Shown in pieces: positions 14,047 to 29,709 of a stretch of DNA of 39,261 nucleotides. The DNA comes from Planctomycetota bacterium. Lineage in GTDB: Bacteria; Planctomycetota; Phycisphaerae; Phycisphaerales; SM1A02. The DNA lies in assembly GCA_014381555.1 (NCBI GenBank), contig JACNLO010000055.1:1-39261 (forward strand), read 5' to 3'. The stretch's first letter is position 1; each line of letters starts with the position of its first letter. The notes beneath the pieces are model-generated. The model searched no databases, had not been told where the DNA came from, and saw nothing but the letters and a program-made list of their open reading frames with translations. The translations under genes were made by a program, and so were the position numbers.

Positions 14047-16431
14047 ATGAAATCTATGAATTGTTGGCAAGCGACTGTGTGTATCGCTGTAGTAATGGGA
14101 GTATGTATGAGTTCGAGTGCTACAAATGAACAAACAGGGCAGGACCAAACCCCTGCGTTGCCATCAGATGGAACAAATCGCCTCGGAGAAACGACGAGTC
14201 CATACCTCCTTCAACATCAGCACAACCCTGTACATTGGTACCCGTGGGGAGAGGAAGCATTTGAAGCAGCTCGGTCCCAGAATAAACCAATTTTTCTCAG
14301 CATTGGGTATTCGACATGTTACTGGTGCCACGTGATGGAACGTGAGTGTTTTGAAGATCAAGAAGTTGCAGATATTTTGAATAAAGACTTCATCGCAATA
14401 AAAGTGGACCGAGAAGAACGACCCGATGTCGACGATATTTATATGACAGCGGTACAAATTATCACTCGCGGAAGAGGTGGTTGGCCTATTTCGTTGTTTC
14501 TTGAACCAGAGCACCTTCAACCATTTTTTGGTGGAACATATTTCCCAAAAAATGACAGTTCTGGTCGAAGAGGATTTATTTCAACCATGAATCTTATTAC
14601 ACAAAAATGGCAAGATGAAAATGAATCTGTGATGAAACAAGCAACATTGGTTGGGGAAGCTGTTTCAAACAGTTTGACAACAAAACATGATTCAGTTCCA
14701 CTTGATGCAGATGTTATAGAACGCGGGGTTGTTTCACTACTCTCTCGCTATGATTCGAAACGGGGTGGTTTTTCAAATGCACCTAAGTTCCCAATGCCTT
14801 CGTATCTTGATTTTCTTATGGAAACAAGTTGGGAGACGCCACAAGTTCAAACATCCGTAGCTAACACATTGATTCAAATGAGCATGGGTGGTATGTACGA
14901 CCAAGTTGGTGGAGGGTTTCATCGATACAGCACGGATGATAAATGGCTCGTCCCTCATTTTGAAAAGATGTTGTACGACAATGGACAACTTGTTTCAACA
15001 TACGCTGAAGCGTATAAGAGAACTGGCAACCCAATCTATGCAAAGGTAATTGAAGAAACATTGGACTATGTCAATAGGGAACTCAGCGATCCAAATGGAG
15101 GGTTTTTATCTGCACAGGATGCTGAGTCCAACCATCTTGAAGGTGAAACGTACCTTTGGCGTCAAAATGAAATTGAAAAGGCGCTATCAGATGCTGGCAT
15201 GGAAAATGAAATTGAATTTACGCTTGCTATCTATGGCGTCGATCAGGAACCGAATTTCCAAGATCCGCACCATCCAGAAGTTCCACCTGCAAACGTGTTG
15301 TTTTTAACTTCCTCACTAGAAGAACTTGCTTCTAGATATGGGATGACGTATCCTGAACTTCAACAAAGAATTGATGCAATTGATGCCGTGCTACTCAAGG
15401 TTAGAGACACTCGCGATCAACCCTCGACGGATGACAAAATAATTACAGCATGGAATGGCATGATGATTACTGGCTACGCAGATGCTGGGCGGATATTAAG
15501 TAATCCTGAATGGGTTTCTCGTGCAGAACACGCAGCATCTTTTATTCTGGATGAAATGCGAAGTGGTACAGGCAAGTTGCTGCGAACATGGAGAAATGGG
15601 AAGGGCGGGGCTGAAGCATTCTTAATCGACTACAGCGCTTTAATCCATGGGCTTCTTGCTATTCATCGTGCAAATCAATCACAACAAGCTTTGCAGCAAG
15701 CAATAGAGTTGTATGACATTGCAAGATCATTGTTCTATGTGCAAGGCGAAGGGTGGTATGACACCGAGGATGAACAATCTGATTTATTTGTGAGAACCCG
15801 TGCACAATCCGACGGGGCTATGCCTTCTGCAACGTCTCTTATCTTGTTAGACCAAATTGATCTCGCAAAGTTGTCAGGTGATTCAAGATTTTTGGACGAT
15901 GCTATTCGTACTATTGAATCTGAGAGCAAGTTGCTCACGACTTCGCCGCTTTCGGCAGTTGTAGCAACAAGGGGTTTGCACACTTTACTCCAACGTTATC
16001 CCGAAACATTCGCAGAAGACATTGAAGTGGTAAACGTAGATTCTTCACCTGTAACGATGCACTGTCAACCAAACACATTGACAGTTCCTGCTGGGGGAAA
16101 CGCAACTGTACAAGTAAAAATAAAAATAATCGATGGATGGCATGTGAATTCGCATAGTCCTGGCAACGATTATGCAGTCCCACTTTCAATTACATCTCTC
16201 GACGAAACAGTTTCTCTTTCTATGATGTGGCCAAAAGGAAAAAGAATGCTTTCCGCTGGCGAACGAGTTGTTGTGTACAGCGGACCTGAAGTGAGCATCC
16301 CAGTAAATATTACTGCAAGCGAAAGAGCAAAAGGTCCTGTTGCCATTTCTGTAACATGGCAAGCGTGTGATGAAGATTCTTGCTTGGCGCCCGAAACCAT
16401 ACAAATACCATGCAAAATTGTTGTGGAGTAA
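14047..16431 (+). CDS. exported DUF255 thioredoxin-like protein fused to a DsbD-alpha-like domain
   Basis: A 794-residue protein of the YyaL/SPATA20 (DUF255) family. Residues 1-26 look like a signal peptide. The DUF255 thioredoxin-like domain follows: [19 protein letters not shown], then [16 protein letters not shown] with the CYWC pair C91/C94, [13 protein letters not shown] and [12 protein letters not shown] long alpha/alpha barrel-like region of six-hairpin glycosidase type spans about 200-640 (for example [20 protein letters not shown] and [13 protein letters not shown]). Residues about 660-794 resemble the N-terminal domain of DsbD, with GWHVNSHSP and a CDEDSC pair before LAPE. That points to an envelope redox role, which is inference. 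The asparaginase-like gene starts on its stop codon (TAATG). Confidence 0.88.
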
Positions 16432-16955
16432 TGAAGTTGAACAATCTTTTTTCAGTTGCACTTATTTCGACTGGTGGCACAATCGAAAAAACATACGATG
16501 CTCATGAAGGCATTCTTGCAAACGGTCTTCCTGTTCTTGAAACTATGCTAGGAACGCTACAACTTGATGGTGTTTCAATTGATAGAATTGAGTTAATGAA
16601 CAAGGATAGTAGGGAGATGTCGCAAGCGGATCATGACGCAATTGCAAATTGCGTTAATGAGCAAGCGCAATCACATGATGGCATTATTGTTATTCATGGA
16701 ACAGACTCTCTTGCACTCACAGGCGAACGAATTCTCGAACAATATCCAGACCTAGAAAAACCATGCGTTATTACTGGGGCAATGAGACCTTGGATTATGA
16801 GAAATACCGATGCATTACAGAATCTTGTCGAATCATTTTCAGTTGTAAAGCTAGTGGACCCTGGCGTCTATGTTGCAATGCAAAATCGTGTATTGCAATT
16901 CCCGAATGTTGTGAAAGATACAGAGCAAATGTGTTTTGTTAAGAAAGAAAGCTAA
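16431..16955 (+). CDS. single-domain asparaginase-like protein
   Basis: A 174-residue protein matching only the N-terminal, catalytic domain of type I/II L-asparaginases (about 330 residues in full). Both nucleophile motifs are present: LISTGGTIEK (T14) and IVIHGTDSLALTGERI (Thr-Asp pair). ITGAMRPW and the GVYVAMQNRVLQF block follow. The frame ends just after VVKDTEQMCF, which sits where full enzymes have the catalytic-lysine motif, so the C-terminal domain is absent. There is no remnant downstream because the POT gene begins six bases after the stop. The frame is open upstream of 16431, but the ATG there overlaps the previous stop (TAATG) and gives the right N-terminus. Asparaginase activity is not certain for this short form. 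Confidence 0.8.
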   Translation: MKLNNLFSVALISTGGTIEKTYDAHEGILANGLPVLETMLGTLQLDGVSIDRIELMNKDSREMSQADHDAIANCVNEQAQSHDGIIVIHGTDSLALTGERILEQYPDLEKPCVITGAMRPWIMRNTDALQNLVESFSVVKLVDPGVYVAMQNRVLQFPNVVKDTEQMCFVKKES

Positions 16956-16960
16956 CTAAT

Positions 16961-19036
16961 ATGTCTAATAAATATTTAACTTCACCCGTTCCAAGTAAGA
17001 AAATGCCAAAGGGTATTCCGTACATTATTGGAAACGAAGCGGCAGAACGGTTTAGTTTTTATGGAATGAAGGGGATTCTCGTTATCTTCATGACTCAGTA
17101 TTTGTTTATGTTGCCAGGATCTGGAACAGAGGCGATGTCTAAACCAGAAGCAATGGCTAATTACCATTTGTTTACTACTGCAGTATATTTCTTCCCAATT
17201 CTGGGTGCACTTCTTGCGGATATCGTCCTTGGGAAATATTTGACGATTATGATTTTGAGTGTTGTCTACTGTTTGGGGCACGGTGTACTTGCAATGATGG
17301 GCTCGACAGCTTGGCTCGAAATGTCACCCGGAATTGTTCTGGCTATTGGATTGGTTTTGATTTCGGTTGGCTCAGGTGGCATTAAGCCATGCGTTTCAGC
17401 ACATGTTGGTGATCAGTTTGGAAAGCAAAACGCTCGCTTACTGGAAAAAGTTTTTGGCTGGTTTTACTTTTCAATTAACACTGGAGCATTCTTGTCGACA
17501 ATGCTTACTCCGTGGCTTCTCGAATGGTACGGTCCACACTTGGCTTTTGGAGTTCCTGGAGTATTAATGGCAATCGCGACTATCGCGTTCTGGATGGGTC
17601 GTAATGTTTTTATTCATATTCCAGCTGGAGGCATGGATTGGTTTAAGGAAACTTTTTCGGGTGTTGGCTTAAAATCGATTTTAAAACTTGCAATCATCTT
17701 TATATTCATTGCAGTCTTTTGGGCGCTCTTTGATCAAACGGGTTCATCTTGGGTTTTGCAGGCAGAAGATTTAAACCGGAATTGGCTTGGTATGCACTGG
17801 CTATCTTCTCAAATTCAAGCAGTAAATCCAATTATGATTTTGATTTACATTCCAGTATTCCAATTTGTTGTGTACCCGCTGATTAATAAAGTTTGGAAGT
17901 TGACACCTATTCGAAAAATTTCGCTTGGCTTGTTTGTCATGGTCGCAGGTTTTGCGATGGTTGGTATGGTGCAAAGTTGGGTAGATGCTGGTGAACGCCC
18001 ATCTATCGGGTGGCAAGTTCTCGCGTATGCGATACTGACGGCATCTGAAGTAATGGTATCCATTACTGGGTTAGAGTTCGCTTACACACAAGCCCCAAAG
18101 AGAATGAAATCTGTCATCATGGCGCTCTTTTTAATGAGCATCTCACTTGGCAACTTGTTCACTGCTGGTGTTAATCACTTTATTATGGTTCCTGATGGTC
18201 TTAGCGATGCAAAATCTCTAGTTTCTAAATGGAGCAATAAAGAGACCTCGAGTGAAGATCGAGAAATTCAAGCATCTGAAAAAGGTATTTCGTACAAACA
18301 TCACGAAGACGGAGGATTTGAGTTGATTCTAAAAGGATGGGAAGAATCAATAGGAGATGATGATATTCGTGTTGGGTTTGCTCCTGATTTTGAACGGATT
18401 TCACTTGTAACTTCTGAAGTAGCCGTGATTGAAGGTGCCGTTGCGAAAATAGGAGAGTTTTGGGATGAAAATGATCGACTTCCATTTGCAGATGAAGGCG
18501 CAAATGCGATTCGAAATGAGCTAGACCCGTGGGGCAAGCCACTGCATTACCGCTTGGTTAATCGTAGTAATTTTGAGATTACAAGCGAGGGACCAGACAG
18601 TTTGTTTATGACTGAGAATGATGTTCGTGCTGAAGTTTCTGTTGAGTCACACACAGTTGAGCAACAAAATGAAATGGCTGAAGAGTATGTTGGTTCCTCA
18701 GAATCTTCCTTCTTTCATCCAAAATATTCATGGCTGGTTGTTCGACAAGCAGAAATTGATGCTGAAAAAGCAGGAAGCAGCCCATCAAATTGGGAAAGCT
18801 TTGTTTCTGAAGCATCCTCAGAAGAGAAAACAGTTATAGCAAAACAGAACCACGACTTCAATATTGTTTGGCAAGTTGGAGGAGCAACAACTCTCGCTGG
18901 TGCAGCATACTTTGAGTTTTTCACATGGTTGATGCTTGGAACTGCGATCATCTTTGTCATCGTTGGATACTTCTACGTACCCAAAACGTATATCCAAGAC
19001 GAAGGTATGATTGCAGCAGCAGCGACTCTAGAGTAG
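16961..19036 (+). CDS. POT/PTR-family peptide transporter with a pseudopilin-like insert
   Basis: A proton-coupled di/tripeptide transporter of the inner membrane, 691 residues where 450-550 is usual. The N-terminal half shows the ExxER motif in IGNEAAERFSFYGMKGILV and the PTR2 signature GWFYFSINTGAFLS; the helices match the POT fold. Residues about 415-630 are a soluble insert before the last helix, FFTWLMLGTAIIFVIVGYFYV. Inside it, residues 492-546 contain FWDENDRLPF, LDPWGKPLHYRL and ITSEGPD, matching the C-terminal region of GspG-type pseudopilins (yr.d.g.yP ... DPWGnpY.Y ... SlGaD). No frameshift or stop separates the parts. It is the last gene of the three-gene unit and converges on the lipoprotein gene with a 5-bp gap. 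Confidence 0.9.
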   Translation: MSNKYLTSPVPSKKMPKGIPYIIGNEAAERFSFYGMKGILVIFMTQYLFMLPGSGTEAMSKPEAMANYHLFTTAVYFFPILGALLADIVLGKYLTIMILSVVYCLGHGVLAMMGSTAWLEMSPGIVLAIGLVLISVGSGGIKPCVSAHVGDQFGKQNARLLEKVFGWFYFSINTGAFLSTMLTPWLLEWYGPHLAFGVPGVLMAIATIAFWMGRNVFIHIPAGGMDWFKETFSGVGLKSILKLAIIFIFIAVFWALFDQTGSSWVLQAEDLNRNWLGMHWLSSQIQAVNPIMILIYIPVFQFVVYPLINKVWKLTPIRKISLGLFVMVAGFAMVGMVQSWVDAGERPSIGWQVLAYAILTASEVMVSITGLEFAYTQAPKRMKSVIMALFLMSISLGNLFTAGVNHFIMVPDGLSDAKSLVSKWSNKETSSEDREIQASEKGISYKHHEDGGFELILKGWEESIGDDDIRVGFAPDFERISLVTSEVAVIEGAVAKIGEFWDENDRLPFADEGANAIRNELDPWGKPLHYRLVNRSNFEITSEGPDSLFMTENDVRAEVSVESHTVEQQNEMAEEYVGSSESSFFHPKYSWLVVRQAEIDAEKAGSSPSNWESFVSEASSEEKTVIAKQNHDFNIVWQVGGATTLAGAAYFEFFTWLMLGTAIIFVIVGYFYVPKTYIQDEGMIAAAATLE

Positions 19037-19041
19037 TGCTT

Positions 19042-20196
19042 TTATTGTCCTAAGTTAATTGCACGAATTTGAAGACGATTGCCTTCTGGAATAAGCATGT
19101 AATGTGTCCACTGATTCGATGTTGTTGCGATAGGAATTGCAAGTCGGTTTCGAATGTGGACACCTTCTTCTTCCCCTAAAGTTTGGCGAACGATTCGATT
19201 ATCTGTTGCAACGAGCCACGAGCCATCAAAAACCGGAGTTGCGGCAACGCTTTGATTGAGGAGGGCTACGGTTTCCATGGCCTTACTTGGTTGCCATACA
19301 ATCATTCGTTGCTTCATGGGATGATAAAAGGCATGGGATTCATGCCATGGTGCGGTTGAATTTGTTGTTGCAATTTGCCAGACCAATTCACGGGTCGCAC
19401 CGGTTTCGAGAATAGGTAGAGAAAGTGCGGTGAGTAGGGGGTCTCTTGCGTTCAGATCCAACTCGATTAGGCTAAGTTTTCCATTTTGAATACGAAATAC
19501 GCGAAGGCGATCTATGCCTATGAATATTGGCATAAGCCAGTCACTTTTTCCATCGTCAATGACACGTTGACCTCTGAGAGTTTTTACAACAAGATGAAAG
19601 CGTTGCTCATCGAGTCCCCTACGTGACCACGCAATATCATCAATTGCATTAATCGTTGGGAAAGCGTTGATATGTTCATCTGAAACAATCCAACGTAGAT
19701 TTCCGGTTGCCCAATCTAATTTTCCAATCCATCTACCCAGCTCACCCTTTGGCGCCTCAACCAAACAGTGTCGGCTATTTGCGGATCGTGTGAGAATCAG
19801 ACCTTTTTGGCTAATGTGAATTGGCGAGATGTGCTTGCCTTCAAGCGGATCAATAGAATGAAGTTCAAGGGTTGTTGAGTTTTGTGCTGCGTTGTTGTCA
19901 CCACAAAGAGTTTTAATCGTTGGAGCATTGCCAAGCTGGACCGCGGCGTGCAATCCATTTGGCGAAAATACAGGAAGACTAAACCTATCCCATGGTAACA
20001 GGCCAGCAGACCAATCAATTTCTGTTGAGGTAGAAATCGTAGCATTAATAGGCTTTACGGTGTTTTGTAGAGTCTTGAGTGCAGCAGTTTTACTTTTTAT
20101 GCTTACTTTAGGATGATCTGTTTTTTGAGTGTTTCCGCAAGCGTATAGAGCAAGTGCAACGAGTCCAATCACAAGATGCTTCCAATGTAACGGCAT
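19042..20196 (-). CDS. lipoprotein encoded directly after the secretin, possible beta-propeller
   Basis: A 384-residue protein with a lipoprotein signal: GLVALALYACG, with the lipid-bearing Cys at residue 20. The rest is beta-rich, with recurring blocks that pair a Trp or Asp turn with strands (LGRWIGKLDWATGNLRWIVS, VFDGSWLVATDNRIV). I read this as possibly a degenerate WD/PQQ-type propeller, with low certainty. It starts 11 bp after the gspD stop, so it is probably cotranscribed with the secretin. Its size and pattern differ from the small GspS/AspS pilotins. It may help secretin targeting, or it may be unrelated. I could not assign a family. Confidence 0.75.
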   Translation of the reverse strand: MPLHWKHLVIGLVALALYACGNTQKTDHPKVSIKSKTAALKTLQNTVKPINATISTSTEIDWSAGLLPWDRFSLPVFSPNGLHAAVQLGNAPTIKTLCGDNNAAQNSTTLELHSIDPLEGKHISPIHISQKGLILTRSANSRHCLVEAPKGELGRWIGKLDWATGNLRWIVSDEHINAFPTINAIDDIAWSRRGLDEQRFHLVVKTLRGQRVIDDGKSDWLMPIFIGIDRLRVFRIQNGKLSLIELDLNARDPLLTALSLPILETGATRELVWQIATTNSTAPWHESHAFYHPMKQRMIVWQPSKAMETVALLNQSVAATPVFDGSWLVATDNRIVRQTLGEEEGVHIRNRLAIPIATTSNQWTHYMLIPEGNRLQIRAINLGQ

Positions 20197-29268: not shown

Positions 29269-29709
29269 TTACTGAGTGATGTCCTCGTTCACACCCTCTC
29301 CGCCGGGCTCGCCATCTTCTCCCCAGCAAATAATGTCGAAACTTGCATTGATTGTTCCAGGAGGAAGTTCAATTACAAAGGAATTTCCCCATGGGTCAAT
29401 AAGATCATCTGCTCGTTCTAGATATGGACCCGATGGACCGCCACCGTCATCAGGAGTGAGAAGAAGTACTTCAAGGTCAAAATCATCCCTTGGTGCTGAA
29501 AGTCCCATGTCAAGTATGTAAAGGTTGACAAGTTTTGCAATGGTAGCTGCTTTCGATTTCGCAGCTGCTTGTTTGGCTGAGCCAACTCGTCCAATAATTT
29601 TGGGCAGGATTAAGGTAGCAAGAACAGTAATAATCATGACAACAACGATGATTTCAATGAGTGTGAATCCTCGTCGTATGGTTTTAGTATTTTTTGTAGA
29701 TGTAGACAT
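29269..29709 (-). CDS. gspG: type II secretion major pseudopilin GspG
   Basis: The 146-residue main subunit of the pseudopilus that pushes substrates through the secretin. The signal is IRRGFTLIEIIVVVMIITVL (cleavage after Gly14, Glu at +5), followed by the long N-terminal helix. The C-terminal domain keeps the family marks: a DPWGNSFVIELPPG loop and a calcium-site-like end (CWGEDGEPGGEG). AGGA lies seven bases before the ATG. Spacing to gspF is 18 bp and to gspH two bases. Confidence 0.96.
   Translation of the reverse strand: MSTSTKNTKTIRRGFTLIEIIVVVMIITVLATLILPKIIGRVGSAKQAAAKSKAATIAKLVNLYILDMGLSAPRDDFDLEVLLLTPDDGGGPSGPYLERADDLIDPWGNSFVIELPPGTINASFDIICWGEDGEPGGEGVNEDITQ

Follow-up and report, generated by a model that had tools for sequence, protein, structure and literature searches.

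Why should a bacterial peptide transporter carry a domain that resembles the head of a pilin? The question is raised by a 39,261-nucleotide stretch of DNA from a Planctomycetota bacterium (GenBank assembly GCA_014381555.1, contig JACNLO010000055.1), this whole stretch being the window referred to below. It encodes a protein of the POT (PTR2) family with a large insert between its last two transmembrane helices (TM11 and TM12). From the sequence alone it had been proposed that the transporter borrowed the head of GspG, a major pseudopilin of the type II secretion system (T2SS), perhaps to interact with secretion machinery. It was found that the protein is very probably a POT transporter with a GspG-type pseudopilin head, likely one of a tandem pair, in its last periplasmic loop. 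The explanation favoured here as a whole, from this anatomy to a docking role of the heads, is given a rough probability of 0.5, the docking role by itself being less likely than not.

A GspG-type head in the last periplasmic loop

Is the protein a genuine POT transporter? Its PTR2 match in Pfam (1.4e-83, 281.4 bits) passes the curated cut-off of 27 bits. The full-length AlphaFold model, built from 71 aligned sequences, has 12 membrane helices, a predicted local distance difference test score (pLDDT) of 89.7 and a predicted template modelling score (pTM) of 0.90; TM11 spans residues 380-407 and TM12 residues 647-671. Residues E26, E29, R30 and K142 are invariant across the 71 aligned rows, so that the POT motif ExxER (E26, E29 and R30 here) is kept. 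The top solved match of the whole model is human PepT2 (7pmy, Z 42.9 over 415 residues), and the XcPOT-type structure 6ei3 (Z 41.8) and PepTSo (4uvm, Z 41.2) have the same 12-TM core of the major facilitator superfamily (MFS). What sets the window protein apart from these POT/SLC15 transporters is the large domain between TM11 and TM12, while the helices of PepTSo between TM6 and TM7 (PepTSo residues 208-293) have no counterpart in its alignment. By its sequence the core is intact, and the protein would be a POT-family transporter that couples peptide uptake to protons.

Since both ends of an MFS protein are cytoplasmic in the known topology, the insert should lie outside the cytoplasmic membrane, in the periplasm. 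It is acidic (47 D+E against 21 K+R) and, modelled alone, reaches a pLDDT of 87.9 and a pTM of 0.74. The sequence-only reading had placed it at 18212-18850 (residues 418-630) with about 215 residues; the insert is real, but both of its ends were missed and it is 239 residues long (Table 1). Beyond the two lobes, conserved positions in 79 aligned inserts include W591 (79/79) and R595 (72/79) in the helical linker, G640 (79/79) in the return strand before TM12, and G647 (79/79). L142, whose insert diverges at its end, and L157, which has a translation mismatch, were left out of the alignment (A2).

The motifs that had first suggested a pseudopilin lie in the C-terminal lobe (C-lobe) of the insert. 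FWDENDRLPF starts at residue 500, not at 492 as originally given, LDPWGKPLHYRL lies at 521-532 and ITSEGPD at 540-546. Across the 79 inserts, D522, Y530 and S542 are each kept in 77, G544 in 79, D546 in 74 and D554 in 73. The window's own GspG gene (29269-29709, minus strand; T2SSG 3.7e-17) carries DPWGNSF, as had been noticed. When 36 inserts were aligned by hhalign with 27 GspG rows (the window GspG is present twice among them; the short pieces L085 and L086 were left out), the score was 60.8 with a probability of 96; none of 200 column shuffles scored higher than 19.8, and reversing the profile gave 11.4. The C-lobe alone scored 67.9 (maximum of 17.3 in 100 shuffles). A profile of the 79 inserts was searched with hmmsearch against 177,635 PDB sequences, and the five best matches were all GspG (E 0.0037-0.064), the next having an E of 9. 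In Pfam, T2SSG (PF08334) is the sole family matching more than two members (47/79 at E<=1, best 1.7e-5).

The structure model gave the same picture. VIA-align superposed the insert on GspG of enterohaemorrhagic Escherichia coli (3g20) with Z 6.4, 2.0 Å over 74 residues and 27 percent identity, and on calcium-bound PulG (5o2y) with Z 6.4 and 2.5 Å over 79 residues. Pilins and pseudopilins filled the 14 best places, and the best entry of any other kind had Z 4.0. The shared elements are the helix, a small helix after LPxxxxG, the DPWG beta hairpin, the SxGPD loop and the third strand; the differences are that the window insert sits in a transporter, is probably tandem and belongs to a group in which one loop aspartate is mostly lost. 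The profile comparison, the PDB search and the structural alignment thus bear out the GspG-type head within the POT transporter, and the structure prediction proposed as a check of this idea agrees.

The search was also run in reverse. A profile of 32 POT heads alone found a match in 189 of 382 Planctomycetota genomes, the POT itself being counted, and many of the matches listed sit in frames of 137-250 aa. Eight non-POT loci were returned; seven were opened, and the match was present in all seven. At E<=0.05, Pfam matched T2SSG and no other family in the five loci that were scanned, two of them with scores above the cut-off.

Could DPWG and GPD instead be coincidental motifs in an unrelated fold? 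Several results weigh against the GspG assignment and would fit such a chance resemblance. The comparison with GspG/T2SSG models that had been suggested at the outset did not succeed with the single window sequence: the T2SSG E value was 0.23 for the whole protein, 0.04 for the insert and 0.01 for an 87-aa piece, and the scores at the three lengths (12.0-16.3 bits) missed the gathering score of 21 bits. The NCBIfam GspG model gave an insufficient E of 0.16 with the 87-aa piece. T2SSG reached E<=1e-3 in just 10 of the 79 members, and in a T2SSG search of 26 genomes the POT insert appeared at E<=0.01 in two alone, both below the cut-off. Foldseek alone found nothing below E 0.4 with the insert model; the VIA-align comparison covered 998 chains preselected by Foldseek, and a Z of 6.4 is middling on the program's own scale (Z under 8). 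When the POT-head profile was run on the genome of the window at E<=0.1, it picked up the POT and, apart from one stray match at E 0.1, nothing else; the GspG of that genome was missed. However, the profile-profile score, the PDB search, the structural superposition and the multi-genome search with the POT-head profile all agree, and chance resemblance is hardly credible. The C-lobe is a GspG-type head.

The N-lobe, the acidic loops and the missing pilin tail

What is the other half of the insert? In the AlphaFold model, the N-terminal lobe (N-lobe) mirrors the C-lobe with two helices, two strands, an acidic loop and a strand. When the N-lobe alignment, limited to the 42 of 79 rows in which this lobe has at least 60 residues, was compared by hhalign with the 79 C-lobes, the score was 24.5 over 64 columns, while the maximum in 100 shuffles was 18.3. 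A hidden Markov model (HMM) of the C-lobe was run on the 79 N-lobes; 48 scored above 0 bits, 21 above 5 and four above 10 (best 22.2), some of the matches spanning the helical half only. In none of 20 shuffled sets did these counts exceed 10, 1 and 0, and the reversed set gave 6, 0 and 0. The lobes of L121, L131 and L134 can be aligned by eye, and L121 has a DxxGxxxxY motif in both. Two observations count against a second head. The direct comparison of the N-lobe with GspG (15.2) was not above chance (shuffle maximum 16.5), so that the homology of the N-lobe rests on its comparison with the C-lobe; and in the shorter verrucomicrobial inserts, the N-lobe is reduced to about a hairpin and a loop. 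On balance, it is likely that the N-lobe is a diverged second head that arose by tandem duplication. The single borrowed head of the sequence-only reading is therefore correct as to type, but there are probably two heads in tandem.

The calcium site of GspG uses three aspartates as ligands. At the presumed equivalents in the C-lobe, the first (D546) is an aspartate in 74 of 79 inserts and the last (D554) in 73; against calcium binding of the GspG kind, the middle one (position 553) is an aspartate in 8 of 79 alone. In the N-lobe loop, aspartates occupy positions 461, 467 and 468 in 51, 69 and 66 of 79 inserts, respectively; the window protein has E461, D467 and D468. These residue patterns make metal binding by the loops plausible.

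Pilins use their N-terminal motif and helix for cleavage by prepilin peptidase and for packing in the pseudopilus. Neither was found in the insert: the prepilin motif (N_methyl) was matched in 0 of 79 inserts at E<=1, and in the AlphaFold model the head helix follows a beta strand, with no membrane helix directly before it, so that the pilin N-terminal helix (alpha1-N) is missing. Because both are missing, the insert should escape prepilin peptidase cleavage and pilin-type packing in a pseudopilus. The insert-bearing protein is neither a pseudopilin nor a building block of the type II secretion filament.

Table 1. Features of the transporter gene and of the open reading frame (ORF) upstream of it, in window positions (AF2, AlphaFold model)
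Feature	Position	Strand	Basis
Asparaginase-domain ORF directly upstream of the POT gene; taken as the longest ORF, from a TTG (the actual start could lie further downstream)	16380..16955	+	PF00710, 1.9e-29
POT/PTR2 peptide transporter with insert, 691 aa	16961..19036	+	ORF, Pfam, AF2, match to solved folds
TM1-TM11 transporter core, residues 19-407; ExxER at residues 26-30	17015..18181	+	AF2 helices
Periplasmic insert, residues 408-646 (239 residues)	18182..18898	+	AF2; common site in 80/80 loci
N-lobe, residues 410-486; probably a second pseudopilin-like head that has diverged, order H-H-E-E-loop-E	18188..18418	+	hhalign, HMM, AF2
N-lobe acidic loop, residues 459-469, consensus GxDxxxGxxDDI	18335..18367	+	Alignment of 79; spaced as in the calcium loop of GspG
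C-lobe, residues 487-561; GspG-type head, helix-helix-DPWG hairpin-loop-strand	18419..18643	+	hhalign, PDB profile, VIA-align
C-lobe loop SxGPDxxxxTxxD, residues 542-554	18584..18622	+	Alignment of 79; register of the GspG calcium loop
Helical linker, residues 566-614, consensus WLxRRKAEL	18656..18802	+	AF2 helices; alignment of 79
Return strand before TM12, residues 633-640	18857..18880	+	AF2; several VIA-align ranges reach into the strand
TM12, residues 647-671	18899..18973	+	AF2

Spread of the insert and its gene neighbourhood

Is the insert a local borrowing or a trait of a larger group? With an alignment of the insert and TM12 as the query, the best 80 of 205 stretches were kept, and all 80 loci have the insert at the common site with a length of 142-239 residues. 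Since the query contained the insert, this count shows the spread of the trait, not its frequency. By their record titles, 40 loci belong to Planctomycetota, 35 to Verrucomicrobiota, two to Fidelibacterota and one to Bacillota, two being without a rank; the Bacillota record (L114) is probably mislabelled, because its gene order matches that of planctomycete loci. A query with the whole protein found a match in 71 of 392 planctomycete genomes. Among 58 aligned ORFs, one of them the window's, the TM11-TM12 site holds more than 150 residues in 37. One of these (L059) fails to align as a head, which leaves 36 insert-bearing ORFs; in the remainder, L018 and L057 end before the site and 19 are without the insert. 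The search among planctomycete POTs that had been called for thus shows the insert to be a trait of a planctomycete and verrucomicrobial POT subfamily and not a local borrowing. Borrowing from the adjacent GspG gene was rejected, as the insert occurs in two phyla and also where GspD was undetected nearby. The statement that POTs normally lack such an insert agrees with the bacterial POT chains among the PDB matches, which are 478-527 aa and too short for the core plus the insert. Related POTs exist without the insert, which is therefore dispensable for the family at large.

When two proteobacterial POTs served as the root of the tree, the insert came out as basal: the first branch has it, and so do all other rows outside a single subclade. 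This insert-poor subclade has 18 members, 17 without the insert and one (L020) with it. The key node separating it has weak support (85/48), and there may therefore have been two gains of the insert. For the trees, the rows were reduced from 103 to 62 by discarding exact copies and those with more than 85 percent similarity. Both trees left out L059, L060 and rows with fewer than 330 core residues, and the second also left out L018, whose contig ends before the insert. The ratio of nonsynonymous to synonymous substitution rates (dN/dS) was estimated for 14 close pairs, not all of them independent, and was 0.03-0.24 in the C-head and 0.04-0.89 in the N-lobe; with 13 pairs giving an estimate for each, it was 0.01-0.09 in the core and 0.06-1.52 in the tail. 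The C-head is under purifying selection.

Other loops of this family also vary. Two planctomycete POTs (L051 and L054) have about 200-260 residues in the TM9-TM10 loop, which in mammals bears the outer domain, with no Pfam domain there; a discoidin-like pattern seen by eye in the L054 insert was dropped, as Pfam gave no support. L041 and L111, 815-aa frames that are perhaps one protein, have about 110 extra residues in the TM3-TM4 loop in addition to the TM11-TM12 insert.

Does the neighbourhood point to secretion? The asparaginase N-terminal-domain ORF stops 5 bases before the POT start in the window and adjoins the POT gene in 17 of 80 loci. Between the POT gene and GspD lies a gene for a 384-aa lipoprotein-like product (19042-20196), as it does in related planctomycete loci; no Pfam family matched it at E<=0.5. 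A recurring order of a DsbH-like gene, asparaginase, POT, a convergent lipoprotein-like gene and GspD was seen in planctomycete loci, many of them titled Phycisphaerae or Phycisphaerales. In the fetched flanks (up to 5 kb, some contigs ending earlier), GspD was found in 20 of 80 loci on the strand opposite to POT, and BLAST did not detect it in the flanks of the other 60, including all those titled Verrucomicrobiota. Thus, the linkage of POT with the T2SS is not general and may be passive. A coupling of the transporter to secretion through its heads, such as lateral contact with the pseudopilus, might still be considered, given that the heads are of the GspG type and that the POT gene faces a T2SS cluster in the window and in some of the planctomycete loci. 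Nevertheless, the absence of alpha1-N and of the prepilin motif, the opposite strand of the T2SS genes, the 60 flanks without detected GspD and the fact that a neighbourhood shared within one group can be passive synteny make such coupling very improbable, and the interaction with secretion machinery suggested in the sequence-only reading was not upheld.

Heads outside a filament and their possible role

GspG-type heads without a pilin tail were also found in other planctomycete proteins, which have the T2SSG-type head in common with the POT insert but differ as hosts. The window's own genome (contig C26, L171:1383-2738) encodes a 451-aa protein with a mid-protein head that passes the T2SSG cut-off (24.9 bits); its match to TraB/PrgY/GumN is partial and below the cut-off (18.7 against 26.8). 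In L174, T2SSG (35.1) and TraB (31.6) both exceed their cut-offs in one protein, while L172 passes for T2SSG (35.1) with TraB not found at E<=0.01. L173, read by eye only, looks like a TraB/PrgY/GumN-type protein with a GspG-type head in its middle. In 19 of 26 genomes, T2SSG occurs in frames of 424-668 aa, weaker than the GspG gene and separate from it; four of these loci were opened for TraB. Small membrane proteins (L197-L202) carry GspG-type heads as well, L198 and L200 by the POT-head profile alone. The 308-aa protein L201:1168-2091 has two tandem heads that match this profile (49.2 and 39.8 bits) behind a part that appears hydrophobic by eye at the N-terminus, and a long protein (L203:313-3198) has three in one frame (40.2, 10.0 and 12.2 bits) and a T2SSG score of 30.0 bits. 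No N_methyl match was found in the head proteins scanned (L171, L174, L197, L199, L201, L202 and L203). Tail-less heads of the GspG type are thus a recurrent feature of planctomycetes, in TraB-family and in other proteins.

What might such heads do on a peptide transporter? A comparison is offered by mammalian PepT1 and PepT2, whose outer domain is located in the TM9-TM10 loop. Both that domain and the window insert are bilobal tandem domains on the outer side of a POT transporter; however, the fold is Ig (immunoglobulin)-like in the former, and the latter has a pilin-head C-lobe and lies between TM11 and TM12. No homology to the PepT1/PepT2 outer domain was found, and no Ig entry was present among the matches listed (the N-lobe was not searched alone). 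Beale 2015 (PMC4597091) describes the mammalian outer domain as two tandem Ig-like domains with trypsin binding, and ascribes a large extracellular domain only to mammalian, not bacterial, homologues.

By analogy, a docking role can tentatively be proposed. The two lobes would form a bilobal, perhaps metal-stabilised domain outside the cytoplasmic membrane, joined to the C-terminal bundle via conserved linkers (W591 and G640). This domain would be a docking surface holding a partner beside the peptide entrance, most likely a peptidase or another peptide-handling protein, so that substrate would be released at the site of uptake. The role would be that proposed for the tandem Ig-like domains of PepT1 and PepT2, reached with a different fold and in a different loop. 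More speculatively, the GspG head, once freed from the pilus, might be a general periplasmic docking module of planctomycetes and verrucomicrobia, used in peptide importers, TraB-family proteins and multi-head proteins; in the transporter it would tether a peptide-producing partner, as an independently evolved bacterial equivalent of the PepT1/PepT2 outer domain.

Two other roles must be weighed against docking. The main rival is that the heads are a lid or conformational regulator that tunes or shields the periplasmic gate with no partner, anchored by the W591 helix and the GG strand before TM12. The linker is indeed more conserved than the heads (W591, G640 and G647, 79/79 each), and the pTM of the full-length model (0.90) would fit an insert that sits in a fixed position on the core; but the existence of related POTs without the insert and the wide range of insert lengths across the 80 loci make a lid somewhat less likely than docking. 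It could also be asked whether the insert is an ordinary spacer domain with no specific function, tolerated in a permissive loop. Insertions in other periplasmic loops of POTs (TM9-10 in L051 and L054, TM3-4 in L041) and the fast-evolving parts of the insert (dN/dS up to 0.89 in the N-lobe and 1.52 in the tail) would suit a spacer. Against this stand the constant insert site over two phyla, the low dN/dS of the C-head and the retention of G544, D546 and D554 in at least 73 of 79 inserts each, and a mere spacer is unlikely.

Both the POT core and the pilin head are of known kinds, and I did not find their combination, the tandem or the site described in the open-licence literature searched (subscription journals were mostly outside the search). 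The window protein represents a bacterial POT subfamily with a large outer domain, probably built from two pilin heads, and pilin heads are found outside any filament in several unrelated proteins. Since bacterial POTs own such an outer domain, the role of the outer domains of peptide transporters can be tested with bacterial transporters.

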